Assembly: GCA_009777415.1 (NCBI GenBank)
Contig: WRLX01000004.1
Span: 1-41,226 of the forward strand
Reading direction: 5' to 3'
Source of the DNA: Oscillospiraceae bacterium
Lineage (GTDB): Bacteria; Bacillota; Clostridia; Oscillospirales; Ruminococcaceae
Length of the DNA: 41,226 nucleotides
In this document: positions 352 to 39,722 of the stretch, piece after piece
Position numbering within the stretch: position 1 is the stretch's first letter
Layout of the letters: every line of letters starts with the position of its first letter
Notes under the pieces: generated by a model
Database searches by the model: none
What the model saw: only the letters and a program-made list of their open reading frames with translations
Told to the model about the DNA's origin: nothing
Program-made: the position numbers and the translations under genes

Positions 352-461
352 TTGCGCAGAAATGATATGGGTAAAAGTTTGAAAAATAAGAGAGGGCGAA
401 CCACCATGCCGCAAATTTCATTGAGATTTGTGCAAGGTGGGGCGGCATGGTCATAACGATG
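352..461 (+). promoter_or_regulatory. Leader: family-A hairpin/SD fused to family-B leader; uORF 379-456 MKNKRGRTTMPQISLRFVQGGAAWS*
   Basis: GCACATTTGCGCAG..GGGTAAAAGTTTGAAA, then ACCATGCCGC/GCGGCATGGT 10-bp stem. Confidence 0.8.
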
Positions 462-3506: not shown

Positions 3507-3666
3507 GAACCTGTCTTCATAAGCAAACGCACTGCTAAAACGGCGAATTTTCTGCCATACTGCGTTGATTTTTGCTTAAATATGCACGGATATTCGCACA
3601 AAAATCGCCTTGTCTGACGAAAAATCCCGCTCGTTTTATCAGCACGTCGCTTATGAAGACAGGTTC
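3507..3666 (+). repeat. Family-C long-hairpin MITE-like element C1, TSD TTA
   Basis: GAACCTGTCTTCATAAGC...GCTTATGAAGACAGGTTC flanked by TTA both sides; core CCATACTGCGTTGATTTTTGC...GCACAAAAATCGCCTTGTCTGACGAAAAATC. Confidence 0.88.
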
Positions 3667-4233: not shown

Positions 4234-6657
4234 TTACCGCACAACAAAATTCACCAGCTTATCGGGGACAACGATTTCCTTAACAATCGTCTTCCCGTCT
4301 AATGTTGCGCCTAATGCTGATTTGGCGGAGGTGAGCATTGCGGATTTATCACAGCCCGCCCGAATAACCGACTTGGCTCTGACTTTTCCGTTGATTTGAA
4401 TCGCTATTTCAACCTCGTCATCAACGCATAACGCCTCGTCATACTCGGGCAATGACTGTTCGTTGAGGATACCGAAACCCGCCGCCTCAAACATTTCCTC
4501 AGTGATATGCGGCGCGAATGGGTTAAGCAGGATTAAAAACGTCCTGAGTTCCGCTTTGTTAATTGAACCCGCCGCATAAATTTCGTTAATAAGCGACATT
4601 AATGCGGCAATCGCCGTATTAAATTTAAGGTTCTCTATATCATAGGTGACTTTTTTGATTGTTCTGTGAAAAGACGCTCCAAGCCCCTTGCTGTAATCAT
4701 TGACTTCCGCGCAGGGTGTGTCGCTTTCCTTTACAGTCAAGTTCTGCAAAGCCCAAACCCTGTCCAAAAAGCGTTTACAGCCTTTAATCCCTGTGGTACT
4801 CCATGGGGCAACTTTCTCAAAATCCCCCACAAACATCTCATACAGCCTTAATGCGTCCGCACCGTAATCGCGGATTACATCGTCGGGGTTAATGACATTC
4901 CCGCGCGATTTTGACATTTTCTGCATATCCTCGCCGAGAATCATTCCGTGCGAGGTTCGTTTTTGATACGGTTCTTTAGTTGTCACAACTCCTATATCAT
5001 ACAAAAATTTGTGCCAAAACCTTGAGTACAGCAAATGCAGTGTGGTATGCTCCATTCCGCCATTGTACCAATTGATATTCATCCAGTAATCAAGCTTTTC
5101 TTTAGATGCCAATTCATTTTTATTGTGCGGGTCGCAGTAACGCAGGAAATACCACGAACTCCCCGCCCATTGCGGCATTGTATCGGTTTCCCGCTTTGCA
5201 TCGCCGCCGCATTCGGGGCAGGTTGTATTAATAAACCCGTCTAAAGCGGCTAACGGTGATTCGCCTGTATCAGTCGGAATATATGACTCCACCTCAGGCA
5301 GTTTCAGCGGCAACTCACTTTCGGGAATCGCAACCCACCCGCATTTGCCGCAGTTGACAAGCGGGATTGGCTCGCCCCAATAACGCTGACGGCTGAACAC
5401 CCAATCACGCAGTTTATAGTTAATTTTGGGTTCGCCTATCTTATTCTCAAAAAGCCAATCGGTAATTTTAGCCTTTGCCTCCTCAACGCTCAACCCGTCT
5501 AAAAAACCGGAATTTACCATAACCCCTGTGTCACAGTCAACAAAAGCCTCTTTTTCTATATCTCCGCCCTTTACAACTTCCACAACAGGCAACTCGAATT
5601 TCCGCGCAAATTCCCAGTCGCGGGTGTCATGACCGGGGACTGCCATAATCGCGCCTGTGCCATAGCTCATCAAGACATAATCGGAGACAAAAATCGGTAT
5701 TTCCTTGTTGTTCACGGGATTAATTGCCGATACTCCGTCTAATTTTACGCCGGACTTGTCCTTATTCATTTCGCTTCGTTCAAAGTCGGATTTCCGCCCC
5801 GCCGCCGCCTTGTACTCTTCTATTTCAGGTAAATTATTAAGCCTGTCCGCCCACTTTTCTATATAAGGGTGTTCGGGAGAAATAACCATGTAAGTCGCAC
5901 CAAAGAGTGTATCGGGGCGGGTTGTGTATACTCTCATTGTTTCCCCGGCAGTTGTCTTGAAATCAACTTCCGCACCCGTGCTTCTGCCAATCCAGTTAAT
6001 CTGCGATAATCTGACACGCTCCGGGTAATCCACCCCATCCAAGTCGTCAATAAGCCGCTGTGCATACTCGGTAATTTTCAGCATCCACTGGCTCTTGACT
6101 TTCCGCACGACTTCACTGTGGCAACGCTCGCAACTCCCGTCAACGACCTCCTCATTTGCAAGCACGACCTTACAATCTGTACACCAATTTACCGCCATTT
6201 CCTTTTTATAAGCAAGTCCCTTTTTAAACAACTGCAAAAAAATCCACTGTGTCCATTTATAGTATTCGGGGTCAGTGGTATTGACTTCCCTTGACCAGTC
6301 AAACGAAAACCCGATTGCTTTTGATTGTCTTGTGAAATTCTTAATGTTTTCGGCGGTGACTGCCGCAGGGTGGATTTTGTTTTTGATTGCAAAATTTTCG
6401 GTAGGTAGTCCGAACGCATCCCACCCGAACGGATAGAGTACATTATAGCCTTCTAACCTGCGTTTCCTTGCGAGAATATCCATTGCCGTATACGGACGCG
6501 GATGACCTATATGAAGCCCTTGTCCCGATGGGTAGGGAAACTCCACAAGAACGTAGAACTTTTCCTTATTTTTGTCCTCGCTCACCTTAAAGGTTTCATG
6601 CTCGTCCCAATAATTCTGCCACTTTTTTTCGATTGCCGTATAATCATAATTTCCCAT
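4234..6657 (-). CDS. leuS: Leucyl-tRNA synthetase
   Basis: [49 protein letters not shown]; start trimmed to the ATG after the leader module. Confidence 0.97.
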
Positions 6658-6865
6658 TCTTTTACCCTTTCCCCTTCTGCACAAGTGTGCTATATAAATT
6701 CGTTTTCCCATTTAACCGGAGTTTTGATTTCAATCTTTTACCCTTTCCCCCTCTGCACAAGTGTGCTATATAAATTCGTTTTCCCATTTAACCGGAGTTT
6801 TGATTTCAATCTTTTACCCTTTCCCCTTCTGCACAAGTGTGCCACATAAATTTATTTTCCCCGTT
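6658..6865 (-). repeat. Family-A tandem leader array (about 3 units, period 76 bp) upstream of leuS
   Basis: Repeated CTCCGGTTAAATGGGAAAACGAATTTATATAGCACACTTGTGCAG(A/G)GGGGAAAGGGTAAAAG; uORFs 6662-6733 and 6738-6809. Confidence 0.92.
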
Positions 6866-7724
6866 TACCGGAGACTACGGACAGCAACAGCTCACGCAGG
6901 ACTTTTCCCGCAGTTGCCGCACAAACTCCGTTGTTATCATATGGCGGAGAGTATTCCGCTAAATCTGCGCCTACAATGTTCATATTCATCGTAACACAAA
7001 ACTCCTTAATCATTCCCCGCAGGTAATTAAACCGCCATCCACCCGCCTCGGGAGTCCCCGTTGCGGGAAATTCGGACGGGTCAAGTACATCAAGGTCAAT
7101 TGTCATATATACGGGAGTATTTCCCAAGTCTCTCCCCAAATCCCGTTCAAAGTCCCCGTTTATGAATACCCGCTCTTTTGACCACTTAAATTCTTCGCGA
7201 GTTCCCGAGCGTATGCCGAAGCTGTGGATTTTATTATCGCCGACTAATTCCCAAGCCCGCCGCATTACACAAGCGTGGGACAGCTTTTCGCCGAGGTACT
7301 CATCGCGCAAGTCCGTGTGTGCGTCAAAGTGGATTATGTGCAAATCGGGATACTTTTCAAGGCAAGCTTCAACTGCGGGCAATGTTACAAGATGTTCCCC
7401 CCCGAGCATAATCGGGATTTTATTATCGTACACAATATCGCTTGCCCCCGCCTTGACAATACCGAGTACTTTTTCGGTATTACCGAACGGCAACTCTAAC
7501 TCGCCCGAATCAAACACTTTTATATCGCTCAAATCACGCTCTAAATAAGGGCTGTATGTTTCAAGCCCGTAGCTTTCACTGCGGATTACCTTTCCGGCAA
7601 ACCGCGTACCGGGTCGGTAGGATGTGGTCCCGTCAAATCCCGCGCCGAATAAAACAATGTCTGCGGATTCGTAATCACTGTCGCATCCGATAAACCTGTC
7701 GGTAATAATAGATTTGTTTAACAT
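6852..7724 (-). CDS. speB: Agmatinase / ureohydrolase family
   Basis: GGEHLVTLPAVEA, IHFDAHTDLRDEY, DLDVLDPSEFPATGTPEAGG. Confidence 0.92.
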   Translation of the reverse strand: MLNKSIITDRFIGCDSDYESADIVLFGAGFDGTTSYRPGTRFAGKVIRSESYGLETYSPYLERDLSDIKVFDSGELELPFGNTEKVLGIVKAGASDIVYDNKIPIMLGGEHLVTLPAVEACLEKYPDLHIIHFDAHTDLRDEYLGEKLSHACVMRRAWELVGDNKIHSFGIRSGTREEFKWSKERVFINGDFERDLGRDLGNTPVYMTIDLDVLDPSEFPATGTPEAGGWRFNYLRGMIKEFCVTMNMNIVGADLAEYSPPYDNNGVCAATAGKVLRELLLSVVSGKRGK

Positions 7725-7727
7725 ATA

Positions 7728-7806
7728 CTTTTACCCATGCCCTTTCTGCACAAATGTGCCATAAAAATTCGCTTTCCCATTTGCGTAGACTTATTTTCAA
7801 ACTTTT
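7728..7806 (-). repeat. Family-A leader upstream of speB (uORF frame shifted by 1 nt)
   Basis: GTTTGAAAATAAGTCTACGCAAATGGGAAAGCGAATTTTTATGGCACATTTGTGCAGAAAGGGCATGGGTAAAAG. Confidence 0.85.
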
Positions 7807-7819
7807 TAACTCCCGATTT

Positions 7820-8713
7820 TCAACTCTCAACTCTTAAATCCCAACCCTCAACACCCCGCAATAGTTCCTCTACATAAGTCGGCAAGGCAAATGCACCCCT
7901 GTGCAGATTTGTATTGTAATAGCGGCTCTTGATTCCCAAAGCGTTCCACCTTTCGTCTTGTAAATCGTTGGTGGGGTGAATTTTCTTGCTCGCGAATCCG
8001 AAAAGCCAATGCCCCGAAGGATAGGTCGGGATATGCGCCTGATACACTTTGCTAATCGGGAAAGACTCGACTATTCGCTTATGCGCCCGTTGCATTGCTG
8101 CCGCGTCTTTGTGGTAAAACGGGCTTTCGTGCTGATTAACCATGATTCCGTTTTCGGTAAGCGCGTTAAAGCAGTTGCCGTAAAACTCTTTCTTAAACAA
8201 TCCCTCGCCCGGCCCTTGCGGGTCTGTGGAATCGACTATTATTATATCGTAGGCATTTTCACGGCTACGCACGAATTTTAACCCGTCTTGATAGTAAATA
8301 CTAAGTCTCGGGTCATCGAAGCAACAGGCAGTCCCCGGCAAAAACTCTTTACAAGCTTTTACCACAATCTCATCAATTTCAACCATGTCAATTTTTGTAA
8401 TACAACTATAGCGGCACAGCTCGCGGATTGCTCCGCCGTCCCCCGCGCCTATAACCAACACAGAGCCTGTACCTTTATCCGACAAGTGAGGCAATGCTGC
8501 CGCCATGGGTACGTGTACAATCATGTCATGGTAGATGAACTCGTCCCGCTCGCTCAACATCATAAATCCGTCAAGAGTTAAGAACCGCCCGAACTCCTCC
8601 GATTCAAACACGTCTATTCGCTGTATTCCGGATTCCGCCGAAAAAAGTTGTTTTGTGACTTTAATCGAAAGCTTTACCGTTTTTGTGTGACACTCGTTAA
8701 ACCACAAATCCAT
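7820..8713 (-). CDS. speE: Spermidine synthase
   Basis: VLVIGAGDGGAIRELCRY, IIVDSTDPQGPGEGLF, adjacent to speB; start trimmed to MDLWFNE. Confidence 0.95.
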   Translation of the reverse strand: MDLWFNECHTKTVKLSIKVTKQLFSAESGIQRIDVFESEEFGRFLTLDGFMMLSERDEFIYHDMIVHVPMAAALPHLSDKGTGSVLVIGAGDGGAIRELCRYSCITKIDMVEIDEIVVKACKEFLPGTACCFDDPRLSIYYQDGLKFVRSRENAYDIIIVDSTDPQGPGEGLFKKEFYGNCFNALTENGIMVNQHESPFYHKDAAAMQRAHKRIVESFPISKVYQAHIPTYPSGHWLFGFASKKIHPTNDLQDERWNALGIKSRYYNTNLHRGAFALPTYVEELLRGVEGWDLRVES

Positions 8714-8985
8714 GTTTTTACCCTTGTCCTTTCTGACCATGTGAGCTATAAAAGTTTCGTTTTCCGCATTTACGCAGATTTACTTTCAAACTTTTTACCC
8801 TTGCCCTGTCTGACTAAGTGAGCTATAAAAGTTTCGCTTTCCGCATTTACGCAGATTTACTTTCAAACTTTTTACCCTTGCCCTTTCTGACCATGTGAGC
8901 TATAAAAGTTTCGTTTTCCGCATTTACGCAGATTTACTTTCAAACTTTTTACCCTTGCCCTTTCTGACTAAGTGAGCCTCGCATA
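8714..8985 (-). repeat. Family-A tandem leader array (>3 units, exact 77-bp period) upstream of speE
   Basis: ACCC cores at 8721, 8798, 8875, 8952; uORFs 8718-8789, 8795-8866, 8872-8943. Confidence 0.95.
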
Positions 8986-9068
8986 TGCTAATTACTAACT
9001 ATTATACCATGAATTGTCTGGGTTTGCAACAAAAAAATCGGGAATATTATTAATATTAAAAAAAACAC

Positions 9069-9749: not shown

Positions 9750-9908
9750 TTAATCCGCAACAAAACTCTTATACACTTTGCCTTGTATTTTTGCCGCCGT
9801 ACTGCGTTGATTTTTGTTCAAATATAAGCGTATATTCTCGCAAAAATCGCCTTGTCTGCCGACAAAAATTCTGCGGCAAATAGCGTCAAGACTTCCGTTG
9901 CGAATTAA
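9750..9908 (+). repeat. Family-C element C2 (same core, different arms)
   Basis: CCGTACTGCGTTGATTTTTGTTC...GCAAAAATCGCCTTGTCTGCCG; imperfect arms CGCAACAAAACTCTT/AAGACTTCCGTTGCG. Confidence 0.75.
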
Positions 9909-10669
9909 TATTGCGCTATCGCAACCAAATCATTAATGAGCTCTCCGGCGATAATCAAGCCCGCAACAGCTGGAACAAATGAGTTGCTGCCGGGAATCTG
10001 CCGCCTTCGGGTGCATTTTCGAACCGTATTGGGCGGACAGACACAATTTGTCTTACAGCTTGTCAGCACATCTTCTTTAGGCGTGATTACATCTTCCTTA
10101 GAATACACAACTTTCAGTTTCGGAATACCTCGCTTGCGCAATTCGCGCCGCATTACTTTTGCAAGCGGGCATACTGAGGTTTTGTATATATCCGCAACTT
10201 CAAAAGCCGCAGCATTGAGCTTATTCCCCGCCCCCATTGAGCTTATTACGGGAACGCCGCACTCATGTGCTTTTACGGCAAGCTCGATTTTCCCCGACAC
10301 TGTGTCAATCGCATCTATTATATAGTCGTATTTCGATAAATCAACTTGTGCCGATGTATCGGGCAAGTAAAAAATCTTGTACTTTTCCACAACGGCAGCG
10401 GGATTAATTTCAAGTACCCGTGACTTTGCCGCATCAACCTTATACAATCCTACGGTATTTACCGTCGCGTGTAATTGTCGGTTTATATTGGTAATGCAAA
10501 CCCTGTCATCGTCGAACAATGCCAATTTGCCCACCCCGCTTCGGGCAAGCGCCTCAACTGCATATCCGCCGACTCCGCCGATTCCGAACACAGCTACATT
10601 AGCATTGTACAATTTTGACATACCGTCTTTACCGTAGATTAATTCCGTTCTCGAAAACTTATTTAACAT
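9905..10669 (-). CDS. tcdA: tRNA threonylcarbamoyladenosine dehydratase (ThiF/E1-like)
   Basis: VFGIGGVGGYAVEALARSGVGKLALFDDD, SSMGAGNKLNA, RRRQIPGSNSFVPAVAGL; start at MLNKF after a degenerate family-B leader. Confidence 0.9.
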   Translation of the reverse strand: MLNKFSRTELIYGKDGMSKLYNANVAVFGIGGVGGYAVEALARSGVGKLALFDDDRVCITNINRQLHATVNTVGLYKVDAAKSRVLEINPAAVVEKYKIFYLPDTSAQVDLSKYDYIIDAIDTVSGKIELAVKAHECGVPVISSMGAGNKLNAAAFEVADIYKTSVCPLAKVMRRELRKRGIPKLKVVYSKEDVITPKEDVLTSCKTNCVCPPNTVRKCTRRRQIPGSNSFVPAVAGLIIAGELINDLVAIAQY

Positions 10670-10715
10670 TTCCGTGACCACGCTGCCTACTTTCTCGGCA
10701 TGGTGGTACATCCTT
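10670..10715 (-). promoter_or_regulatory. Degenerate family-B leader upstream of tcdA
   Basis: Minus strand TAAGAAAGGATGTACCACCATGCCGAGAAAGTAGGCAGCGTGGTCACGGAAATG. Confidence 0.55.
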
Positions 10716-10738
10716 TCTTAGAAACTGACTGACTATAA

Positions 10739-11156: not shown

Positions 11157-11441
11157 ATGGAAAAAAAACAGAAATTTTACACATACAAGGGCTATCACTT
11201 GGTAAGAAAAGGAAATGTGATTTACTACGGGAATATGTCGGGGGATTATGTCACTAAAATTGACATTCAATCAACCCGCAAGGAAAAAGAGCTTGAAATT
11301 GCCAACAAGCTGAGGATTGTGCTTATGCCTACCGACACCGAAAAGCCGCTTGATATAAACAAGATGAAATCAGCGGGCAAGGAAACGCTTTATGAGGCGT
11401 TGCAGGTTGCCCACACATGGCTTGAAAAAGCGAATGGCTAA
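11157..11441 (+). CDS. Small protein of unknown function (94 aa)
   Basis: Clean ORF with consensus promoter and family-A leader directly upstream. Confidence 0.75.
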   Translation: MEKKQKFYTYKGYHLVRKGNVIYYGNMSGDYVTKIDIQSTRKEKELEIANKLRIVLMPTDTEKPLDINKMKSAGKETLYEALQVAHTWLEKANG

Positions 11442-11445
11442 GAAT

Positions 11446-11486
11446 TGTATTTTGTGCAAGGTGGGGCGGCATGGTCATAAAAATGA
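11446..11486 (+). promoter_or_regulatory. Truncated family-B leader upstream of nrdG
   Basis: TTTTGTGCAAGGTGGGGCGGCATGGTCATAAAAATG. Confidence 0.75.
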
Positions 11487-13595: not shown

Positions 13596-13759
13596 TATAG
13601 TCGATTAACTTAAGAATCACTAAATCTTTGCGGAAAAATTTCCCGCCATACTGCGTTGAATTTTGCTTAAATATCAGCGGATATTCGCACAAAATTCGCC
13701 TTGTCTGACGAAAAATCTTCACGCAAATTTTCAAGCACTTCTTAAGTTAAACGACTATA
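13596..13759 (+). repeat. Family-C element C3 (same core, arms TATAGTCGwTTAACTTAAGAA)
   Basis: Core CCATACTGCGTTGAATTTTGC...GCACAAAATTCGCCTTGTCTGACGAAAAATC. Confidence 0.85.
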
Positions 13760-14032: not shown

Positions 14033-14545
14033 ATGGTCGTAAAAATGGCACATTTACAGCATTTTAATCCTACTTTCAGTTTTGAGCCGCCTTTGCCGCC
14101 GGAAGCGAAAATCTCATTGAGTGCGTCTTCGTACAATATGTGTATGAAAGGCTTAAACATTCCTGTTCAGATAACGAGTGTTCCGTTAGATAAATCTGAA
14201 CAGCCTAAAAATGTTATTGTGATGGCGCATTTGAGCGTTGGGGCTTTTTCAACTTGCATTGATGAAAAGTTGGCGACCGCACTTGAACTGTTTCCTGTAG
14301 GAAAGTCGCGAATTCAGACAATCGGCGGGTTTAAAAAGGTAAAAAAGTATATAGTCACCGTATCTTTCCCCAATACCAATTTAAGGGGGAATTTGATGTA
14401 CGTTGTCGGCTGTGACTTGGCGTATAAGGGCAATGCCTCAAATTTAGACCCCAATAATTTCAGCGTTTTGATAGGACGCGATATAACCGCAAACTGGAAT
14501 ATAGTCTGGAACGGGCCTACCTCAACTGCGTTTATTTCAGACTAA
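14033..14545 (+). CDS. Retropepsin-like (aspartyl protease fold) protein, active-site Asp apparently lost
   Basis: MAHLSVGAFSTCIDEKLATALEL...SVLIGRDITANWNIVWNG pattern; SVGA where DTGA expected. Confidence 0.6.
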   Translation: MVVKMAHLQHFNPTFSFEPPLPPEAKISLSASSYNMCMKGLNIPVQITSVPLDKSEQPKNVIVMAHLSVGAFSTCIDEKLATALELFPVGKSRIQTIGGFKKVKKYIVTVSFPNTNLRGNLMYVVGCDLAYKGNASNLDPNNFSVLIGRDITANWNIVWNGPTSTAFISD

Positions 14546-14648
14546 CAGGGTTTTACCCCACTCTTTTATGCGTTTATTTCAGACCGGCAGGGTTTTACCC
14601 CACTCTTTTATGCGTTTATTTCAGACTGACAGGGGTTTACCCCATTTG
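14531..14648 (+). repeat. 42-bp tandem repeat (2.8 copies) at the 3' end of the retropepsin-like gene
   Basis: TTTATTTCAGACTAACAGGGTTTTACCCCACTCTTTTATGCG repeated at 14531, 14573, 14615. Confidence 0.93.
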
Positions 14649-14719
14649 TAACACAATTGCCGCCTTTTGAATATACTGTACTGTATTCAAAATAATCTTA
14701 ATGTAGAGGTGGTGTATTT

Positions 14720-18592: not shown

Positions 18593-19843
18593 TTATGTCC
18601 AACTCCCCAAATACTTCTCTTGTTCGGGAGTCAACTTATCTATGTTTACGCCCCAAAATCCCAACTGGCGGGTCGCCACTTCTGTATCTACCTCTTTTGG
18701 TACGCGTATGATTTTATCGTTTAATTTGCCTTTATTGCTCACTAAATAAAGTGCGGACAATGCTTGAATCGCGAACGACATATCCATAATTTCTGCCGGG
18801 TGACCATCGCCCGCCGCAAGATTTACTAACCGACCCTCGGCAATGACGTAAATCCAGTTGTTATTTTTCAGTTTGTAGCCTTGAATATTATTCCGTGCCA
18901 ATTTTTCCTGCACGGCGATTGACTTTAACTCCGCCACATCGACTTCGCAATCGAAATGCCCCGCATTACAGCAAATCGCGCCGTTTTTCATCACGTTAAA
19001 GTCTGCCTCGGTGATGACTTTGTTACAACCGGTCACGGTGACAAAGAAATCGCCGATTTTTGCCGCCTCGTTCATAGGCATGACTTTGAATCCGTCCATG
19101 ACTGCTTCCATTGCTTTAATCGGCTCTATCTCGGTGACAATTACCGATGCACCCAACCCCTTAGCACGCATTGCAACGCCTTTTCCGCACCAACCGTAGC
19201 CCGCAACCACAACATTTTTCCCCGCAACAATCAGGTTAGTCGTGCGGTTAATCCCGTCCCAAACCGATTGCCCCGTGCCGTATCTGTTGTCGAACAAATG
19301 TTTACAGTCGGCATCATTAACCAACACCATAGGGAATTTCAGCTTGTTTTCTTTGTTCATGGAAATAAGCCGCAAAATCCCTGTTGTAGTTTCTTCACAG
19401 CCGCCAATTACGTTTTCAAGCAGGTGTTGATACTTTGTGTGAATAAGCGTTACTAAGTCGCCCCCGTCGTCTATTATTATATTAGGTGCGGCTTCAATTA
19501 CTTTTGCGATATGGCGTTCGTATTCCTCGGCGGAGGCATTGTACCACGCAAAAACGCTCAATCCTTCATGCACAAGTGCCGCCGCTACATCGTCTTGGGT
19601 GGAAAGCGGGTTGCTCCCCGTGATGTACATTTCCGCCCCCCCCGCCGCAAACACTTTGCAGAGATAAGCTGTTTTTGCCTCTAAGTGAACCGACAATGCG
19701 ACTTTTAATCCCGCAAACGGCTTTGTGTTTTCAAACTCTGCTTTAATCCCGCGCAAAAGCGGCATATTTGACTCAACCCAGTCAATCTTACGCTTCCCCG
19801 ACTCCCACAAGTTTATGTCCCTTACTTCACTTTTTGTACCCAT
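18593..19843 (-). CDS. ahcY: Adenosylhomocysteinase
   Basis: VALSVHLEAKTAYL, GSNPLSTQDDVAAAL, GYGWCGKGVAMRAKGLGA, CNAGHFDCE. Confidence 0.95.
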   Translation of the reverse strand: MGTKSEVRDINLWESGKRKIDWVESNMPLLRGIKAEFENTKPFAGLKVALSVHLEAKTAYLCKVFAAGGAEMYITGSNPLSTQDDVAAALVHEGLSVFAWYNASAEEYERHIAKVIEAAPNIIIDDGGDLVTLIHTKYQHLLENVIGGCEETTTGILRLISMNKENKLKFPMVLVNDADCKHLFDNRYGTGQSVWDGINRTTNLIVAGKNVVVAGYGWCGKGVAMRAKGLGASVIVTEIEPIKAMEAVMDGFKVMPMNEAAKIGDFFVTVTGCNKVITEADFNVMKNGAICCNAGHFDCEVDVAELKSIAVQEKLARNNIQGYKLKNNNWIYVIAEGRLVNLAAGDGHPAEIMDMSFAIQALSALYLVSNKGKLNDKIIRVPKEVDTEVATRQLGFWGVNIDKLTPEQEKYLGSWT

Positions 19844-19883
19844 TTTTACCCTTTTACCCTTTCCCTTTCTGAACAAGCTCATT

Positions 19884-20043
19884 ATTACCCCACCAACAAA
19901 GTCTTAGCCTCCGTCGCTTGTCTTTTCGCCGCCATACTTCGTTGATTTTTCATTAAATATCATCAGATATTCGCAGAAAAATCGCCTCGTCTGACGACGA
20001 AAATCCTGCGTGCCAAAAGCCAACACTTTGTTGGTGGGGTAAT
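19884..20043 (+). repeat. Family-C element C4 (same core, arms ATTACCCCACCAACAAAGT), inserted in the ahcY family-A leader
   Basis: Core CCATACTTCGTTGATTTTTCATT...GCAGAAAAATCGCCTCGTCTGACG; flanked by split family-A sequence at 19846-19883 and 20044-20106. Confidence 0.85.
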
Positions 20044-20104
20044 ATAAAAGTTTCGCTTTCCCCGTTTACACGGATTTGCTTCCAAACTTTTACCCTTTCC
20101 CTTT

Positions 20105-21526
20105 CTAATCGCCAACACTAACCAACCAAACCTCATCAACCCCCGACAAATCACCAATCCTGTCCCGCTTCCCGCCGCTAATCACAACCGCACTCCTCGC
20201 CCGAACCACCACAACAGGCAATGCCCACTCAGTCGTCCCGTCAGTCAAGTACAAACCTTTAGTCGAGAAAAACACATTAGCATTGTTGCGGATTTCAACC
20301 TCGCCGCCCACAACATCAACCTCAATCGGCGGCAACTCGGGGAACACTTCAAAACTGCAAACCTTGCAATAAACCGCAACCGTCCAATCGGTTTGCTCGC
20401 CATAATCGTGTACCTCATAATCGCACAATCTCACAAACGCACTCGCAAAGTCGGTTTCATTAACACCGTTCACTTCCTCAACAAAGACCTGCACTTTATC
20501 AGTCGCCGGGTTGTAATCATCGGGCAAAGTCAACTCAACATCAGTGCCGTTTTCGCTTGTACTCTCAACCAATTTCCCGTAATACGCAACCTCGCCGTCA
20601 CGCATTACAACCGCCGACAATGTTTCACCCACGGTCGCGCCGTTGTAGTCGAATGTAATCGTGTCGCCGTCACGCGCAGTCGGTGTAACGCTTGCCAATT
20701 CAAGCGAATCATCCGACATTGTAAATTTTATATTGTTGCTCGTTGTTAATTCTGCAAAGTTGCCGTCTATAGTTGTGGCGGATTTTCCGCCCGTTGCGGA
20801 ATTGGCGGTGGTGAACAGGACAGACTGCTGATTTAGTTGCAAAGCGGGGCGAATATCGCCGCTTGTGGTCAAAAACGCTGTTGGCATCGAAAATGACGGC
20901 ATGGCAATGTACGCGGCGAACCTGCTAAACCCATTGTCGTGGGGCGAGCGAAGCCACCATATCCCGCTCGCAAATGGATGCAATGTTTCGGAAACTATGT
21001 TGACTTCACCCGAACTTAACGCCCATAACCTTGCGTTTTCGACGTTTACATCGGGTAATTCACGCGGAATTATTAAAGCGTTTTCTTTGGGCGGCAACGC
21101 TTTCGCGATTTCATCCATTTTCAGTTGTAACGTACTGCCGCGGTATTCATTGGGTTTTTCCCAGTTTTCCATACCGCTCGGATTGTCAGCGTACCACGCT
21201 GTATCGTTATCATAGGTATTTTGTTTCATGCCTTCGTCCGGGGCTAAATGGTTAGGAAGAGACGTGCGGAACACGGTGTTGCCATAGTTTTGCCCGTCCG
21301 CAAGCAACAGGGTCAGTGTGTCACTTGGCGTGTCATCGCCTACACTGTCGTAGCCGATTACTGCCCATTGTTTGCCACCGAAACCGATTATAGTTGCGTT
21401 GTTGGTGTTGACTGTGAAAGTTGTGCCGGTTGCTGTCGTTTTTGTCAGGATTGCGGTAAGCCCGACCATTAGTGTTATTGTTAGCAGGATTGCTATTGGG
21501 GCTTTTAACACTTTGTACTTTTTCAT
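20105..21526 (-). CDS. Secreted protein with DUF6273-like domain and C-terminal Ig-like region
   Basis: Signal peptide; WWLRSPHDNGFSRFAAYIA...DIRPALQLNQQSVLF. Confidence 0.6.
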   Translation of the reverse strand: MKKYKVLKAPIAILLTITLMVGLTAILTKTTATGTTFTVNTNNATIIGFGGKQWAVIGYDSVGDDTPSDTLTLLLADGQNYGNTVFRTSLPNHLAPDEGMKQNTYDNDTAWYADNPSGMENWEKPNEYRGSTLQLKMDEIAKALPPKENALIIPRELPDVNVENARLWALSSGEVNIVSETLHPFASGIWWLRSPHDNGFSRFAAYIAMPSFSMPTAFLTTSGDIRPALQLNQQSVLFTTANSATGGKSATTIDGNFAELTTSNNIKFTMSDDSLELASVTPTARDGDTITFDYNGATVGETLSAVVMRDGEVAYYGKLVESTSENGTDVELTLPDDYNPATDKVQVFVEEVNGVNETDFASAFVRLCDYEVHDYGEQTDWTVAVYCKVCSFEVFPELPPIEVDVVGGEVEIRNNANVFFSTKGLYLTDGTTEWALPVVVVRARSAVVISGGKRDRIGDLSGVDEVWLVSVGD

Positions 21527-22114: not shown

Positions 22115-22258
22115 AGGGGAGAGTTTGAAAAGTAAGAAAGGAAGAACCACCATGCCGCAAAGTCAAAGAAGAGCAACGGTGCAACGGGCTTTGCCCGTTG
22201 GCAGGTTACTTGACATATTGAGTTTTGTACAAGGTGGGGCGGCATGGTCATAATTATG
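22115..22258 (+). promoter_or_regulatory. Family-B leader of sigma gene with 51-nt in-frame insertion; uORF 22125-22253
   Basis: MKSKKGRTTMPQSQRRATVQRALPVGRLLDILSFVQGGAAWS*. Confidence 0.8.
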
Positions 22259-28923: not shown

Positions 28924-29084
28924 GAACCTGTCTTCATAAGCGACGTGCTGATGAAGTAAGCGATATTTTTCGTCAGACAAGGCAATTTTGACGATAATAT
29001 CCGTTGATATTTGAGGAAAAATTAACGCAGTATGGCGGAAAATATCGCCGATTTAGCAGTGCGTTTGCTTATGAAGACAGGTTC
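28924..29084 (-). repeat. Family-C element C5, TSD TAA, inserted in the rsmD family-B leader
   Basis: Same arms as C1; removing element plus one TAA restores TTTGAAAATAAGAAAGGAAGAACCACCATGCCG. Confidence 0.88.
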
Positions 29085-29087
29085 TAA

Positions 29088-29157
29088 GAAAGGAAGAACC
29101 ACCATGCCGCCAAATTTCATTGGTTTTTGTGCAAGGTCGGGCGGCATGGTCATAAAA
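29088..29157 (+). promoter_or_regulatory. Family-B leader of rsmD (3' part, after family-C insertion)
   Basis: AAAGGAAGAACCACCATGCCGCCAAATTTCATTGG...GGGCGGCATGGTCATAAAAATG. Confidence 0.8.
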
Positions 29158-29724
29158 ATGCGAGTTATTACCGGGACTTCTAAAGGAGTAAACTTAAATG
29201 CGTTGTCGGGAACAGGGACACGACCTACCACCGATAAAGTAAAGGAAGCTGTTTTTTCGGCAATTCAAGCAATCGTTGATATTGAGGGTGCAACAGTCCT
29301 TGATTTATTTGCAGGTTCGGGGCAGCTTGGGATTGAAGCACTAAGCAGAGGGGCAAAAAAAGCTTACTTTAACGACAATAATCCGAAAGCGGCGATGATT
29401 ATCCGCGAAAACTTAAAAAAAACGGGCTTCGGCGACAGTCGATATTCAAGGGTTGGCAGGCTTCCTTATTCCGCGTTCATGCGGTTAGTAAAGGACGAAT
29501 TTGACATTGTGTTTCTTGACCCGCCCTATGAAAAAGGAATTATTGAAAAGGCATTGCCGTTGGCGGTGTCCAAAATGAATACGGGTGATTCGGGCGGCGT
29601 TATAGTATGTGAGCACGAAAAGTCTCTGATTCTGCCGGAAAAAGTCGGGGTGTTCGGGGTCGAAAAAGTGTACCTTTACGGTTCGATTAATGTTACAATA
29701 TATACACCCCTCAACCAATGTTAG
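29158..29724 (+). CDS. rsmD: 16S rRNA (guanine966-N2)-methyltransferase
   Basis: MRVITGTSKGVNLNALSGTGTRPTTDKVKEAVFSAI, VLDLFAGSGQLGIEALSRG, FLDPPY; in-frame ATG also at 29146. Confidence 0.93.
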   Translation: MRVITGTSKGVNLNALSGTGTRPTTDKVKEAVFSAIQAIVDIEGATVLDLFAGSGQLGIEALSRGAKKAYFNDNNPKAAMIIRENLKKTGFGDSRYSRVGRLPYSAFMRLVKDEFDIVFLDPPYEKGIIEKALPLAVSKMNTGDSGGVIVCEHEKSLILPEKVGVFGVEKVYLYGSINVTIYTPLNQC

Positions 29725-29876: not shown

Positions 29877-30359
29877 ATGAAAACTGCGATTTATCCGGGG
29901 AGTTTTGACCCGGTAACCTATGGGCATATTGATATAATAGAAAGGGCGGCAAAGCTTTTCAGTAAGCTAATCGTAGTTGTTTCGATTAATCCGGTTAAGC
30001 CCTCCACCTTTACTACCGAGGAACGTATGGATTTCTTACGCAGGAGTCTTAAATTCCGTCGGAACATTGAAATTGACTGCAATTCGGGGTTGTTCATCGA
30101 CTATTTTAAAAAGCGCGATGCCGATGTAATTGTAAAGGGGTTACGTGCAATGTCGGACTTTGAGTATGAATTTCAAATGGCGTTAATTAACAAGGATATG
30201 CACCACACTGCCGAAACAATATTTTTATCTGCGAACGCGGCGAGTATGTTCCTTTCATCGAGTGCGGTAAAACAGATTGCCATGTTTGGCGGCGATATAA
30301 GCGCGTTTGTGCCTGATTGTATCGCAGGCGATATTATAGAGCGGCTGAAGTGTCGGTAA
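29877..30359 (+). CDS. coaD: Pantetheine-phosphate adenylyltransferase
   Basis: AIYPGSFDPVTYGHIDIIERAA, VKGLRAMSDFEYEFQMA. Confidence 0.97.
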   Translation: MKTAIYPGSFDPVTYGHIDIIERAAKLFSKLIVVVSINPVKPSTFTTEERMDFLRRSLKFRRNIEIDCNSGLFIDYFKKRDADVIVKGLRAMSDFEYEFQMALINKDMHHTAETIFLSANAASMFLSSSAVKQIAMFGGDISAFVPDCIAGDIIERLKCR

Positions 30360-30446
30360 ATGGGGAAAATGAATTTATATAGCACACTCTTGTGTAAGTG
30401 TGCAGAAAGGGCAAGGGTAAAAAACTTGAATATCAATTCTCGGTAA
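30360..30446 (+). CDS. Putative leader ORF 1 of coaD-distal relay (MGKMNLYSTLLCKCAERARVKNLNINSR*)
   Basis: ATG immediately follows coaD stop (TAAATG); ends CGGTAA abutting ORF 2. Confidence 0.45.
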   Translation: MGKMNLYSTLLCKCAERARVKNLNINSR

Positions 30447-30506
30447 ATGGGAAAAATGAATTTATATAGCACACTTAGTGCAGAAAGGGCAAGGGTAAAA
30501 ACTTGA
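30447..30506 (+). CDS. Putative leader ORF 2 of coaD-distal relay (MGKMNLYSTLSAERARVKT*)
   Basis: ATG immediately follows leader ORF 1 stop (TAAATG); TGA overlaps TTG start of next gene (TTGA). Confidence 0.45.
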   Translation: MGKMNLYSTLSAERARVKT

Positions 30507-30970
30507 ATATTGAAGAAATACTTGCGATGATGGATGAAATTCTTGACAGGGCTGTCGCAGTTCCGTTCAGCGGGCGAAAAAGTCTCATTGACGTGGAGGC
30601 GATGAACAATCTAATCCACGACATCCGCATGAACCTGCCGCGCGAGATTGACCAAGCGCGTGGCGTAGTAAACGAGCGTAAACAGTTAATCTCCGACGCA
30701 AGCAGGGAAGCGGACAGAATTATTAAACGGGCTGAAGAGCGAGCAAACCAGATGGTTGCCGCGCAGGAGGTTGTCAGAATGGCTCAAATGCGTGCGGAAG
30801 AATTAATGATAAACGCGCAACAAAGGTCTAAGGAGCTACATCACACAAGCAGAGACCATGTTGACGAAATGCTCGAAAAAACGGAGACTTTGTATTTAAA
30901 AAACCTTGAGGAAATCAGAAAATCACGTATGGCAATCAAAAATGTAGGCAACAAAAACACAGGAAGATGA
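30503..30970 (+). CDS. Coiled-coil (ATPase-like) protein of unknown function
   Basis: Long charged helical ORF downstream of coaD; TTG start. Confidence 0.75.
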   Translation: MNIEEILAMMDEILDRAVAVPFSGRKSLIDVEAMNNLIHDIRMNLPREIDQARGVVNERKQLISDASREADRIIKRAEERANQMVAAQEVVRMAQMRAEELMINAQQRSKELHHTSRDHVDEMLEKTETLYLKNLEEIRKSRMAIKNVGNKNTGR

Positions 30971-30988: not shown

Positions 30989-32068
30989 TTAAGATATTAC
31001 GCCTCCTCCGACTACAATATCATCATCGTACAAAACGACTGCTTGACCTTTTGCAATCGCTCTTTGAGGTTGTTCAAACTTGATGAACACCGTATTTAAA
31101 GAGACGGCATTTGCAGTTGCCCACTGTTCTGTTTGATTATAACGTATTTTTGCCTTAACCCGAATAGGCGTTTTCGGCGGCTTATCACAGGCAATCCAGT
31201 TAAAATCAATTGCGGTAAGTGAATCAGAAAATAACCCTCGATTTTCACAGAGGGTCACGGTATTGTTTTCAACGCTTTTTGAGCGGACATACATTGGCTT
31301 GGAGAACGAAACTCCAAGCCCTTTCCGTTGTCCCACAGTATAACGGATTAGTCCGTTATGCCTGCCTATTACATTGTTGTCTGTATCAATAAAGTCGCCG
31401 CTTGCATAACTTTTTCCTGTATACTGTTCGATAAACTTTGCGTAATCGCCATTGCGGACAAAACAAATATCTTGGCTGTCGCGCTTACTCGCATTGATAA
31501 ACCCCTGCTTTGCGGCAATTTCACGTATTTCACTTTTGCGCAATCCTCCAAGGGGGAGCAGGGTATGAGCCAACTGCTCCTGTGTCATTGCATACAATAC
31601 ATAGCTTTGGTCTTTTGAGTCGTCAACTGCTTTTTTAAGAAGATACCGTCCTTTTTCGGAATCGTACTCGATTCTCGCGTAATGCCCGGTGACGATATAA
31701 TCCATATTAAGCTGTCTGCCCCGCTGAAACAGCTTTTCAAACTTCATATAACGGTTACAGTCGATACATGGGTTGGGAGTTGCTCCGTTTTGGTAAGCCA
31801 CTACAAACCTGTCAATTACCTGCGACTCAAACTCATGCGCGAAATTAAAGACGTAAAACGGCATTCCGAGCGTGTTGGCAACGCTCCTTGCGTCTTCGGA
31901 ATCCTCAAGTGTGCAACAAGCTTTGGGGTTTGGAATGCTTTCGCTCCCGTCAAAGTCAAACAGCTTCATCATCGCCCCTGTACAATCAAGACCTTGCTCT
32001 TTCATTAAGTAAGCGGCGACGGAACTGTCAACTCCGCCGCTCATTGCTATCAATGCCTTTTTTTTCAT
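30989..32068 (-). CDS. mnmA: tRNA-specific 2-thiouridylase
   Basis: ALIAMSGGVDSSVAAYLM, NPCIDCNRYMKF, VTGHYARIE, SQDICFV. Confidence 0.96.
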   Translation of the reverse strand: MKKKALIAMSGGVDSSVAAYLMKEQGLDCTGAMMKLFDFDGSESIPNPKACCTLEDSEDARSVANTLGMPFYVFNFAHEFESQVIDRFVVAYQNGATPNPCIDCNRYMKFEKLFQRGRQLNMDYIVTGHYARIEYDSEKGRYLLKKAVDDSKDQSYVLYAMTQEQLAHTLLPLGGLRKSEIREIAAKQGFINASKRDSQDICFVRNGDYAKFIEQYTGKSYASGDFIDTDNNVIGRHNGLIRYTVGQRKGLGVSFSKPMYVRSKSVENNTVTLCENRGLFSDSLTAIDFNWIACDKPPKTPIRVKAKIRYNQTEQWATANAVSLNTVFIKFEQPQRAIAKGQAVVLYDDDIVVGGGVIS

Positions 32069-32240
32069 TCTTTTACCCTTGCCCTTTTTAAACAAGTACG
32101 TTATAAAAATTTCGTTTTCCGCACTTACGCAGATTTACTTTCAAACTTTTTTACCCTCGCCTTTTTAAACAAGTACGTTATAAAAATTTCGTTTTCCGCA
32201 CTTACGCAGATTTACTTTCAAACTTTTTTACCCTTGCCCC
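32069..32240 (-). repeat. Family-A tandem leader array upstream of mnmA (period 77-78 bp)
   Basis: ACCC cores at 32076, 32154, 32231; uORFs 32088-32144 and 32165-32221 MKVNLRKCGKRNFYNVLV*. Confidence 0.92.
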
Positions 32241-33901
32241 TAAGCTGTCTCAATTGCGGCTTCTTCCTCAAGCTTTAAATTTTCAATCGCCATGTCCCTT
32301 AGAACAAACTTTTGGATTTTTCCACTCGCGGTCAATGGGAATTTTTCAACAAACATAACTCTTTTGGGGACTTTGTGTTTAGCGAGATTTTTATTAACGT
32401 ATGACTTTATTCCGTCTTCGTCTGCTTCCGCACCTTCTTTCAAAACAACAAATGCGCAGACCTCTTCGCCGTATCTTTGCGATGGAATCGCAACAATTGC
32501 AACGTCTTTGACAGCAGGGTGAGTGTAAATAAAATCCTCTATTTCTTTCGGGAAAATGTTTTCGCCGCCGCGGATAATCATGTCTTTAATTCGCCCTGTT
32601 ATTTTGTAATACCCTTCTGCATCAACCGTTGCCAAGTCCCCGGTGTGAAGCCAACCGTCACTGTCAATCGCGGCTTTAGTCGCCTCCTCAAGCTTATAAT
32701 AGCCTTTCATCACGTTGTAGCCTCTTACACAAAACTCGCCTGCAACTCCGATACCGACTTCTTCACCTGTTTCGGGTTCGACAATTTTCGTTTCCATAAA
32801 CGGCAAGGTTTTGCCGACTGTGTGCACTCGCTTTTCCAAGCTGTCCTCAATAGTAGTCTGTGTACACACCGGCGATGCTTCTGTTTGACCGAATGCAATC
32901 GTTATATCTTTCATGTTCATTTTGTTAACAACATCCTGCATAACTTTAATGGGGCAGGGTGAACCCGCCATAATCCCTGTACGCAGCGTTGAGTAATCGT
33001 ATTTGTCAAAGTCCCTATGCTCCAACACCCCTATAAACATAGTAGGCACACCGTGCAATGCAGTGCATCTTTCATACTCGACAACGTGCATTACTTTCAT
33101 CGGCGTATACCAAAGCAGCGGAACCATTGTACTCCCGTGCGTAACACAAGCCATTATTGCAAGCACCATTCCGAAACAATGAAAAAACGGGACGGGGATG
33201 CAAAGTCGGTCTTTCTCGGTAAATCTCATGCAGTCGCCTATTGAAAGCCCGTTGTTGACAATGTTATTATGAGTAAGCATTACGCCTTTCGGAAACCCGG
33301 TAGTACCCGAAGTGTACTGCATATTAATCACGTCATCGGGATGAAGGCTCGCTTTTCTTTCCTTAAATTCGGTCGATGAAACAAGAACGCCAAACGCCTC
33401 AATATCATTCCAGTGATACATACCTTTATAATGGTTGTCAAAAGAAACCACTATTTTTAATTCGGGCAACTTTTCGGATTTTAAATCGCCTTTCCTGCAG
33501 GTTTTAAGCTCGGGGCATATAGAATAGACAATTTTTTCACAGTCTATATCTTTTAAACCGTCGCATATAAACAATGCCTTGGAGTCGGACTGTTTCAAAA
33601 GAAACTCCAGTTCGCTTTCCTTATAATTAGTGTTGACCGTTACAAGCACAACCCCAATTCTCGCAGTCGCAAACATCAACACGAGCCACTGTGGGTAGTT
33701 GGTTGCCCAAACCGCCGCATGGTCACCTTTTTTCAGCCCCATTCCCATAAGCCCTTTGGCAATGCGGTCTACCTTTTGGTTGAACTCGTACCATGTCTTA
33801 TCGAATTCCATTTCAATGTACTTGACCGCTTGATGTGTCGGGAATTTTAACGCTGTTTCCTCCAACGCCTCCCCAATTGTTATGTTCCTTAACCCTTCCA
33901 T
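32240..33901 (-). CDS. AMP-binding acyl-CoA synthetase
   Basis: MQYTSGTTGFPKGVMLTHNNIVNN, GWLHTGDLATVDAEGYYKITGRIKDMIIRGGENIFPKEIE. Confidence 0.93.
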   Translation of the reverse strand: MEGLRNITIGEALEETALKFPTHQAVKYIEMEFDKTWYEFNQKVDRIAKGLMGMGLKKGDHAAVWATNYPQWLVLMFATARIGVVLVTVNTNYKESELEFLLKQSDSKALFICDGLKDIDCEKIVYSICPELKTCRKGDLKSEKLPELKIVVSFDNHYKGMYHWNDIEAFGVLVSSTEFKERKASLHPDDVINMQYTSGTTGFPKGVMLTHNNIVNNGLSIGDCMRFTEKDRLCIPVPFFHCFGMVLAIMACVTHGSTMVPLLWYTPMKVMHVVEYERCTALHGVPTMFIGVLEHRDFDKYDYSTLRTGIMAGSPCPIKVMQDVVNKMNMKDITIAFGQTEASPVCTQTTIEDSLEKRVHTVGKTLPFMETKIVEPETGEEVGIGVAGEFCVRGYNVMKGYYKLEEATKAAIDSDGWLHTGDLATVDAEGYYKITGRIKDMIIRGGENIFPKEIEDFIYTHPAVKDVAIVAIPSQRYGEEVCAFVVLKEGAEADEDGIKSYVNKNLAKHKVPKRVMFVEKFPLTASGKIQKFVLRDMAIENLKLEEEAAIETA

Positions 33902-33960
33902 TTTTACCCTTTTACCCTTTCCCTTTCTGCACAATCGTGCTTTAAAAATTCGTTTTCCAA
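33902..33960 (-). repeat. Family-A leader of acyl-CoA synthetase gene
   Basis: AAATTGGAAAACGAATTTTTAAAGCACGATTGTGCAGAAAGGGAAAGGGTAAAAGG. Confidence 0.85.
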
Positions 33961-33961
33961 T

Positions 33962-34612
33962 TTAGAACCTGTCTTCACAAGCGGCCTCTTCGCCGTTTTC
34001 AGTATTTTCATCGCCGTCATCAAAGCTTATTTCGCAATCGCTCAAAGCGGATTTGAGTTTATTTTGTTGTTCCTCGCTTATTTGGTTTTGACCTAACCAC
34101 AATTGCTTCAGTTCCGTCAATCCTGTAAGCGGGGTAATATCGCTTATTTGGTTGCGCCACAAGTCAAGAGTCTCCAACTTTGTCATTGAGCCGAGCGGCG
34201 AAACATCATCAATTCTGTTGTCGTCAAGTAAAAGCACTGTCAAGTTAGTCAAACCGCTCAATGCCGATACATCAATTATATTGTTTCCGAACAACCACAG
34301 TTCGGTCAAATTAGTCATGTATTGCAATTGCTCTATGTCCGCACTCCTCAAGCTTTTGTAGGACAAATCCAACACTGTTAAATCGGTGCTGTAAGTTTCG
34401 CTTCTGATTGTAATAAACTCGGGGATTTGAGCTTCCGCCGCTATGTCATTTCCCGCCCCCCCCGAATAAGTAATAATCAGCCAAACCGCCGCCGCCAACG
34501 CAACAATGCCGACAGTAATACCGATTATAAGTTTAATCGGTATTATTATTATATCATCATCTTTTTTAGTCATAACACACACCATGTGTGATTTACCGCA
34601 TATGCCGAGCAA
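33962..34612 (-). CDS. Membrane-anchored leucine-rich-repeat (internalin-type) protein
   Basis: TM anchor; LTELWLFGNNIIDVSALSGLTNLTVLLLDDNRIDDVSPLGSMTKLETLDLWRNQISDITPL. Confidence 0.85.
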   Translation of the reverse strand: MLGICGKSHMVCVMTKKDDDIIIIPIKLIIGITVGIVALAAAVWLIITYSGGAGNDIAAEAQIPEFITIRSETYSTDLTVLDLSYKSLRSADIEQLQYMTNLTELWLFGNNIIDVSALSGLTNLTVLLLDDNRIDDVSPLGSMTKLETLDLWRNQISDITPLTGLTELKQLWLGQNQISEEQQNKLKSALSDCEISFDDGDENTENGEEAACEDRF

Positions 34613-34649: not shown

Positions 34650-34895
34650 TTAATCAGATGCCGATTTCAAAGCGGCAGCCAATTGCGCGGGGCAAGACGA
34701 CGGTCTCCCGCCGCAACGAATGCTCTCGAGCCGCTCTATAACATCATCCGCTTTCATTCCCTCAACTAACTTGGCAACACCCAATCCGTGTCCGGGGCAA
34801 CCGCCGCTAATCCTGACATCGTTGATTACACCATTGTTTATATCAAATTCAATCTTGTTCGCGCAAACCCCGCGCGGTGTAAATTCATACCTCAT
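34650..34895 (-). CDS. TSCPD domain protein
   Basis: RYEFTPRGVCANKIEFDINNGVINDVRISGGCPGH...RCGGRPSSCPAQLAAAL. Confidence 0.88.
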   Translation of the reverse strand: MRYEFTPRGVCANKIEFDINNGVINDVRISGGCPGHGLGVAKLVEGMKADDVIERLESIRCGGRPSSCPAQLAAALKSASD

Positions 34896-35040
34896 ATTTT
34901 TATCCTTGTCCTTTCTGAACGAACGTAAATTTAAAGTTCGTTTTCCGCACTTACGTATATTTTCTTTTGAAGTTCTTTACCCTTGTCCTTTCTGAACGAA
35001 CGTGCTACTAAAAACTCGTTTTACCCTTGTCCTTTCACAC
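34896..35040 (-). repeat. Family-A leaders (about 2 units) between PHP and TSCPD genes
   Basis: AAAGGACAAGGGTAAAACGAGTTTTTAGTAGCACGTTCGTTCAGAAAGGACAAGGGTAAAG... Confidence 0.85.
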
Positions 35041-38388: not shown

Positions 38389-38489
38389 TGTTATGACCAT
38401 ATCTTTCCGAGGCATAAAAGCCTCTATGAATAAGCCTGTCAAGCGGACTGCCCACCGGCGAAGCCGATGACACCTCCGCTATTATTCAA

Positions 38490-38672
38490 ACTTTTACCCT
38501 TGCCCTTTCTGCACAAACAATTTATTAAAAGTTTCGTTTCCCGCATTACACAAGTTTGATTTCAACCCTTTTTACCCTTGCCCTTTCTGCACAAACAATT
38601 TATTAAAAGTTTCGTTTCCCGCATTACACAAGTTTGATTTCAACCCTTTTTACCCTTGCCCTTTCTGCTTTT
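38490..38672 (-). repeat. Family-A tandem leader array between dgkA and era (period 78 bp)
   Basis: ACCC cores at 38497, 38575, 38653; uORFs 38572-38643 and 38494-38565 MKSNLCNAGNETFNKLFVQKGQG*. Confidence 0.92.
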
Positions 38673-39168: not shown

Positions 39169-39614
39169 CTTATTATACCGAGTTTCTGCAAAATCTGTTC
39201 TTGTTTTGCGAACATGATTTGCTCATCGGATTTGTTAATATGGTCGTAGCCGAGAAGATGCAACATTCCGTGTACAGTCAAAAACGCCATTTCCCGCTCA
39301 AGTGAATGCCCGTATTGGTTAGCCTGTCTGACAGCCGTGGGTACCGAAATAATGACATCTCCAAGCACTACCGACTTGTCCTCATAATTAGGCTCGCCCA
39401 TCAAGAATGACAACACATCGGTAGAACTGTCAATTTTTCTGTACTGTTTGTTAAGCGTGCGTATGTCCTCATCCGATACGAGAGTCATCGACGCTTCCGA
39501 TACATAGGGGTATTTCTCATGCTGTAAAACCTTACAACAGGTTTTGTAGGCAAGTGGGCGGAAATTCAACCCCGATTTTACCTTATCGTCATAGAAAAGC
39601 TTAAAATTCACCAT
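39165..39614 (-). CDS. ybeY: Endoribonuclease YbeY
   Basis: LNKQYRKIDSSTDVLSFLM, LGDVIISVPTA, VHGMLHLLGYDH. Confidence 0.95.
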   Translation of the reverse strand: MVNFKLFYDDKVKSGLNFRPLAYKTCCKVLQHEKYPYVSEASMTLVSDEDIRTLNKQYRKIDSSTDVLSFLMGEPNYEDKSVVLGDVIISVPTAVRQANQYGHSLEREMAFLTVHGMLHLLGYDHINKSDEQIMFAKQEQILQKLGIIR

Positions 39615-39722
39615 TTTTATGACCATGCCGCCCCACCTCGCACAAAACACAATGAAATTTGCGGCATGGCGGTTATTCCTTTCTTGTTTTTCAAACTTTA
39701 CCCTTTTCCCTTCTGCACAGAC
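39615..39722 (-). promoter_or_regulatory. Family-A end plus family-B leader between phoH and ybeY; uORF 39617-39694 MKNKKGITAMPQISLCFVRGGAAWS*
   Basis: GTGCAGAAGGGAAAAGGGTAAAGTTTGAAAAACAAGAAAGGAATAACCGCCATGCCGC...GCGGCATGGTCATAAAAATG. Confidence 0.85.

Follow-up and report, generated by a model that had tools for sequence, protein, structure and literature searches.

REP and BIME elements, which are mobilised by RAYT proteins (Y1_Tnp), are short palindromic hairpin repeats that are dispersed through genomes and homogenised within species. Other small non-autonomous repeats, the bacterial MITEs and the Rickettsia palindromic elements, form RNA stem-loops and carry open frames that can fuse to genes; in the available portion of their description, they lie mainly between or inside genes, and no family confined to the interval between a Shine-Dalgarno sequence (SD) and a start codon appears there (PMC2229807). 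That interval is occupied by a hairpin in genes 38 and 25 of phage T4, where, with mutational support, the structure cuts the spacing between SD and AUG from 22 to 5 and from 27 to 11 nt, and where destabilisation of the hairpin lowers translation (PMC3014915).

Here we describe a repeated hairpin element (family B) found in a window of 41,226 nucleotides, the whole stretch of DNA analysed, from an Oscillospiraceae bacterium. Unlike REP and BIME elements, which generally lie between genes, it stands at start codons and in one orientation. It resembles MITEs and Rickettsia palindromic elements, as far as that portion of their description goes, in being a small repeat with a stem-loop and an open frame able to fuse to a gene, and differs from them in its confinement to the SD-start interval; its inverted repeat is internal, not terminal. 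Like the split ribosome-binding sites (RBSs) of T4 genes 25 and 38, it has the SD and the start codon on either side of a hairpin and outside its stem, but in contrast to those single loci it is dispersed at dozens of unrelated genes, its residual spacing is longer, and we only infer that the hairpin bridges the gap. We propose, with a probability of about one half, that we are dealing with an RNA cassette, copied and dispersed, which has lodged at many unrelated genes between their native SD and their native start codon, where its own SD 5' of the hairpin makes a split RBS. A structured, copied translation-start cassette, and not a peptide attenuator, is in our judgement the best reading of the sequence data.

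A covariance model (R1) was built from 30 short copies and searched against the window's genome (G000, 1.78 Mb, 86.84% complete) and 60 congeners (G009, G016, G019 and others). Two short-form copies in the window encode 25-aa peptides exactly as the initial annotation had claimed, MKNKRGRTTMPQISLRFVQGGAAWS at 379-456 from a TTG start and MKNKKGITAMPQISLCFVRGGAAWS at minus 39694-39617. The first copy (374..461, plus strand; E=3.5e-21) precedes a peptidase S51-like gene (447/459-1124) and contains, all on the plus strand, the element SD AGAGGG (391-396), the 5' arm of a stem that we call P1 (ACCATGCCGC, 403..412, holding the leader ATG), the 3' arm (GCGGCATGGT, 442..451, holding the first candidate ATG of the gene, at 447) and the tail ATGGTCATAACGATG (447-461). 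The two arms pair exactly, and the TAA of the leader, whose 25 codons (379..456) are open in this copy, overlaps ATGGTCATAANNATG, both as previously described. The second short copy lies between phoH and ybeY (39612..39699, minus; E=1.8e-21), stacked behind the tail of another repeat family, family A (39696..39717, minus; SD, GGGTAAAG). A long-form copy with an extra internal hairpin precedes an ECF sigma factor gene (22120..22258, plus; E=1.5e-9; Sigma70_r2/r4), a copy with a +1 length change and its leader frame fused to the gene precedes rsmD (29072..29160, plus; E=4.3e-15), and a 5'-truncated copy precedes an nrdG-like gene (11444..11485, plus; R1 match 11417-11485, E=0.0096). The element occurs in three length forms, short (ATG to TAA, 51 nt), long (102 nt, as at 22120-22258) and minimal, as well as in 5'-truncated copies. 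The sigma, rsmD and nrdG-like loci had been listed among the further copies; a fourth, at the start of a ThiF/tcdA-like gene, proved to be only a decayed relative (10667..10728, minus; E=0.057), and the possible copies at era (minus 38402-38391) and 14033 share just an ATGGTC(A/G)TAANNATG tail, and at era this tail closes a repeat of another family.

The element is copied far beyond chance, since the 3' core GGGGCGGCATGGTCATAANNATG with at most three mismatches occurred at 35 places in G000 and the reversed-pattern control at none. R1 matched 38-39 places in G000, 28 in G009, at least 68 in G019, 11 in G016, two each in G069 and G080, and one each in G070 and G065; G020 and G034 each gave one weak, chance-like match, and by the same search the element was absent from 50 of the 60 congeners. 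These genome-wide counts, which derive from searches and sampled stretches, bear out the earlier claim of a repeat family. The pattern had no match in 24 genomes from other families of the same order, and the exact 21-nt core occurred in a named GTDB collection in two Oscillospiraceae MAGs of one series (Th196P3). At the gathering score, Rfam reported only tRNA in the window, and nothing relevant at E<=1 for six element loci; a search of the open-access literature found no description of such a repeat.

In all of 58 G019 copies, a start codon that begins an ORF of 50 aa or more comes 2-12 nt (mode 10) past the stem, whereas 5.8% of random positions met this criterion with ATG and a further 10.6% with GTG or TTG. 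Adjacency to gene starts holds likewise in G000 and G009, where the modal junction is TCATAA-NN-ATG and each genome has one clear exception (L023 and L060), so that the location at start codons stands as first claimed; the unplaced matches that remain in these two genomes match the 5' arm in antisense, are unrelated, or are tails with another cassette behind them. The element SD is GAAAGG or AAAGGA, followed by P1 of 9-10 bp with a loop of 29-30 nt, then by 7-12 A-rich nt and the start codon, and most of the 58 copies have an AGG-type SD 6-8 nt 5' of P1 and the start 7-12 nt 3' of it. An empty site is available for the copy before ybeY: in G003, G020, G009 and G070, the end of phoH, a purine-rich SD and the ATG lie within about 20 nt and no element is present, whereas in G000 the same junction holds the family A tail, also missing at the empty sites, and the B element. 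At the rsmD junction, a further repeat precedes the G000 copy, which makes that junction uninformative as a second empty site. Stacking recurs elsewhere: at L059 a B element follows a B tail, others follow family A tails, those at L015 and L021 follow a third family, and L020 holds a nested or stacked copy. A direct duplication of 17 nt, AAAATGTCGAAAAATAA, which takes in the start codon of the gene, flanks one copy (L027, around 1430-1545); this is not general.

The hairpin, like its position, is conserved. In alignment A1, 98.6% of the cells of the 10-bp stem were paired, and two of its pairs showed double changes; the test is far stronger in G019 because the loops there are widely diverged, and in its 58 diverged copies 519 of 522 stem base-pair cells were paired. 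Compensatory changes occurred in six G019 copies (CCACGTCGC/GCGGCGTGG, CCGTGCCGC/GCGGCACGG and CCGCGCCGC/GCGGCGCGG), permutation of the 3' arm never matched the observed pairing (p<=1e-4), and none of 500 shuffles, which kept copy relatedness, gave as many as the seven double-change cells of P1. A second, weaker helix within the loop covaries as well (33 double-change cells against 16.6 expected; 0/500 shuffles). Since G-U pairs occur and copies are always sense to the gene, selection most likely acts on a structure in the RNA. In the window copies, a slipped register, CCACC/GGUGG, excludes P1; in the predicted ensemble it competes with P1, which takes up about half, and for 392-461 it is the minimum-energy fold. 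The slipped helix covaries across G000, G009 and G016 (C-G, U-A, A-U), a comparison between species that involves few events, and shows no covariation within G019. We rejected it as a general structure on the G019 result, but a two-state hairpin is possible in the lineage of the window.

The SDs also speak for the proposed cassette. Near-consensus, presumably young copies in G019 have a strong native SD upstream (mean anti-SD energy -4.0 kcal/mol at -39 from the stem), whereas in diverged, older copies this energy is -1.4 (rank correlation rho=-0.44, p=6e-4), so that the cassette seems to have supplanted it. The element's own SD is retained in the diverged copies, yet becomes somewhat weaker with divergence. 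We suggest that a cassette lands downstream of the native SD and upstream of the native start codon, that the folded hairpin may hold the element SD near the start codon and let ribosomes initiate there, and that the gene would survive the insertion while the element SD takes over and the old upstream SD decays; insertion would be aimed at initiation regions, not merely tolerated there. Bridging of SD and start by the hairpin is our preferred but unproven explanation. The hairpin does lie between SD and start, as in a split RBS, but with it excised the SD-to-start distance is a median of 17 nt in G019 and, read from the sequence, about 13 nt in G000 and G009, longer than the effective 5-11 nt of T4 genes 25 and 38, which counts against bridging. 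The half share of P1 in the predicted ensemble and the covarying alternative helix in G000, G009 and G016 also speak against bridging, as do the weakening of the element SD and its position 8 nt from the leader ATG, an ideal distance for initiating the leader instead.

This last observation leads to the main rival, in which ribosomes would initiate on the TTG or ATG of the leader, melt the hairpin, terminate at the TAA or TGA beside the gene start and reinitiate at the gene, the hairpin otherwise keeping the gene off. We consider it unlikely as the general function; it might be at work in young copies for as long as they keep the native SD. Both window copies, and most young copies of G000, G009, G016, G069, G070 and G019, have a genuine leader frame that is open and has its stop beside the gene start, and it may matter there; such copies resemble the minicistron of bicistronic leaders, its stop overlapping the next start, as far as the available part of that account describes translational coupling (PMC12548453). 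A possible two-state pairing of the kind that an attenuator would need, with a helix that covaries across G000, G009 and G016 but not within G019, agrees with coupling, as does the 23-codon ORF that family A cassettes often carry and that ends at the next SD. However, unlike such bicistronic leaders, the frame and its start are lost as copies diverge, and it is not the frame that persists. In the 35 G019 copies with 29-nt loops, the first, second and third codon positions had substitution rates of 0.30, 0.27 and 0.29, and in G000 and G009 synonymous and non-synonymous variants were proportional to opportunity (5/23 and 10/64; 3/20 and 10/66). Loop lengths other than 29 nt, all of them frame-breaking, were found in 23 of the 58 G019 copies (about 40%), compensatory stem changes convert the leader ATG to GTG, ACG, GCG or ATA, and three G009 copies (L045, L047 and L061) have an in-frame TAG. 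In 20 of the 58, neither plausible frame gives a leader ending near the gene start, and the 31 copies without a usable stem-ATG leader match the 27 with one in stem pairs (8.97 against 8.93 of 9), SD (87% against 81%) and start offset (9.0 against 9.2 nt).

The conserved leader peptide of the initial annotation is rejected on these grounds as the unit of selection, and translation of a conserved leader as the function of the element thereby loses its support: coding constraint was not found in G000, G009 or G019, the window leader at 379..456 included, whose peptide is not conserved and whose pattern of change is neutral. A universal TTG-started frame was likewise discarded, the TTG and ATG frames of G019 differing and the 5' part varying in length. 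From the attenuation-like design that had been suggested, the stem, the location at start codons and a possible two-state pairing survive. Of the two signs that the initial annotation had named as speaking against its proposal, random frameshifts across the genome are partly present, in G000 copies as well as in the G019 loops, whereas a lack of stem conservation is clearly contradicted by the covariation. In addition, a leader-peptide attenuator would be expected to serve targets with a shared pathway or signal, and among the window targets examined (peptidase S51-like, NrdG-like radical SAM, ECF sigma, RsmD and YbeY) no common pathway was found.

A selfish, MITE- or REP-like repeat with no role in translation, its palindrome needed for copying and its copies persisting where harmless, would account for sequences homogenised in each species, for the perfect inverted repeat, and for truncated and nested or stacked copies (L059, L020, 39696-39717). 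Yet random insertion predicts many neutral intergenic copies in both orientations, and almost none are seen; P1, SD and start distance are kept even in highly diverged copies that presumably no longer move; and the native SD decays. We regard this alternative as improbable. Nor does a mobiliser of the RAYT or reverse-transcriptase type survive, as neither gene was found in G000 or G009: Y1_Tnp had no match in G000 (87% complete), G009 (98%) or G016 and one weak match in G019, and the usual reverse-transcriptase families gave no match in G009 or in the incomplete G000. The negative results in G000 and G009 also speak against a selfish repeat. An origin from viruses was rejected on the absence of the exact core from a viral contig collection.

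The proposed cassette is not alone at start codons. With up to three mismatches, family A (SD core TGCAGAAAGGGCAAGGGTAAAA) occurs at 485 sites in G000, at eight in G019 and at no more than two in any other searched congener. In 404 kb sampled with four mismatches allowed, 109 of 212 sites adjoin a gene start and 62 a short ORF, against 16% and 17% of random positions, and 31 of these 62 ORFs are exactly 23 codons long. A different element in G016 (L087, L091, L188-L191) and G080 (L083), with the stem GACCATGCC/GGCATGGTC, ends in ATGGTCATAANNATG at gene starts, and a 5' end like AAGTTTGAAAA is common to several cassette families. The start-site bias of family A and the common 5' ends suggest that a general process is directed at start codons and that the B element may be one of its products. 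More tentatively, the sequences could represent a class of mobile RNA-structured cassettes actively targeted to initiation sites, each replacing the RBS and open to being overlaid by the next; that unrelated families (B, A and the G016/G019 forms) share the target and the AAGTTTGAAAA-like 5' end would imply a common, undescribed insertion machinery, a reading that we hold possible but do not favour. If the cassette reading is correct, a spreading RNA cassette has overwritten the RBSs of many genes in some bacteria. Such a family would be unusual among repeats in that its insertion site is a functional address, the SD-start gap, and its dozens of split RBSs would form a natural library for testing how ribosomes initiate over a hairpin. 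It would also counsel caution, as a leader ORF can be open and repeated and yet incidental to RNA structure.

Several further repeats were recorded in the window. Family A forms repeats of 76-78 nt, often in tandem, that end in the SD AAAGGGCAAGGGTAAAA right before a start codon or a TTG-started 23-aa ORF; they occupy 6647-6882, 7716-7799, 8703-9001, 19840-19876, 20043-20112, 30348-30500, 32058-32240, 33897-33980, 34885-35016 and 38480-38669. At 30401-30513, the sequence past an internal family A SD (AACTTGAATATCAA) is similar to the start of the downstream gene (ACTTGAATATTGAA), as if the start region had been duplicated. The third family (GTTTGAATAATAGCGGAGGTGTC..., with a G+C-rich hairpin) lies at minus 38513-38391 and ends in GGAAAGATATGGTCATAACAATG before era; it is also present at L015, L021 and L308. 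An 80-nt dispersed repeat (CCGCCATACTGCGTTGATTTTTG...), with no evident tie to the cassettes, occurs at 3546-3626, 9788-9868, 13637-13717 and 19923-20003 and, inverted, at 28965-29050, and three tandem 42-nt units (14527-14652) overlap the end of the ORF at 14033-14545.
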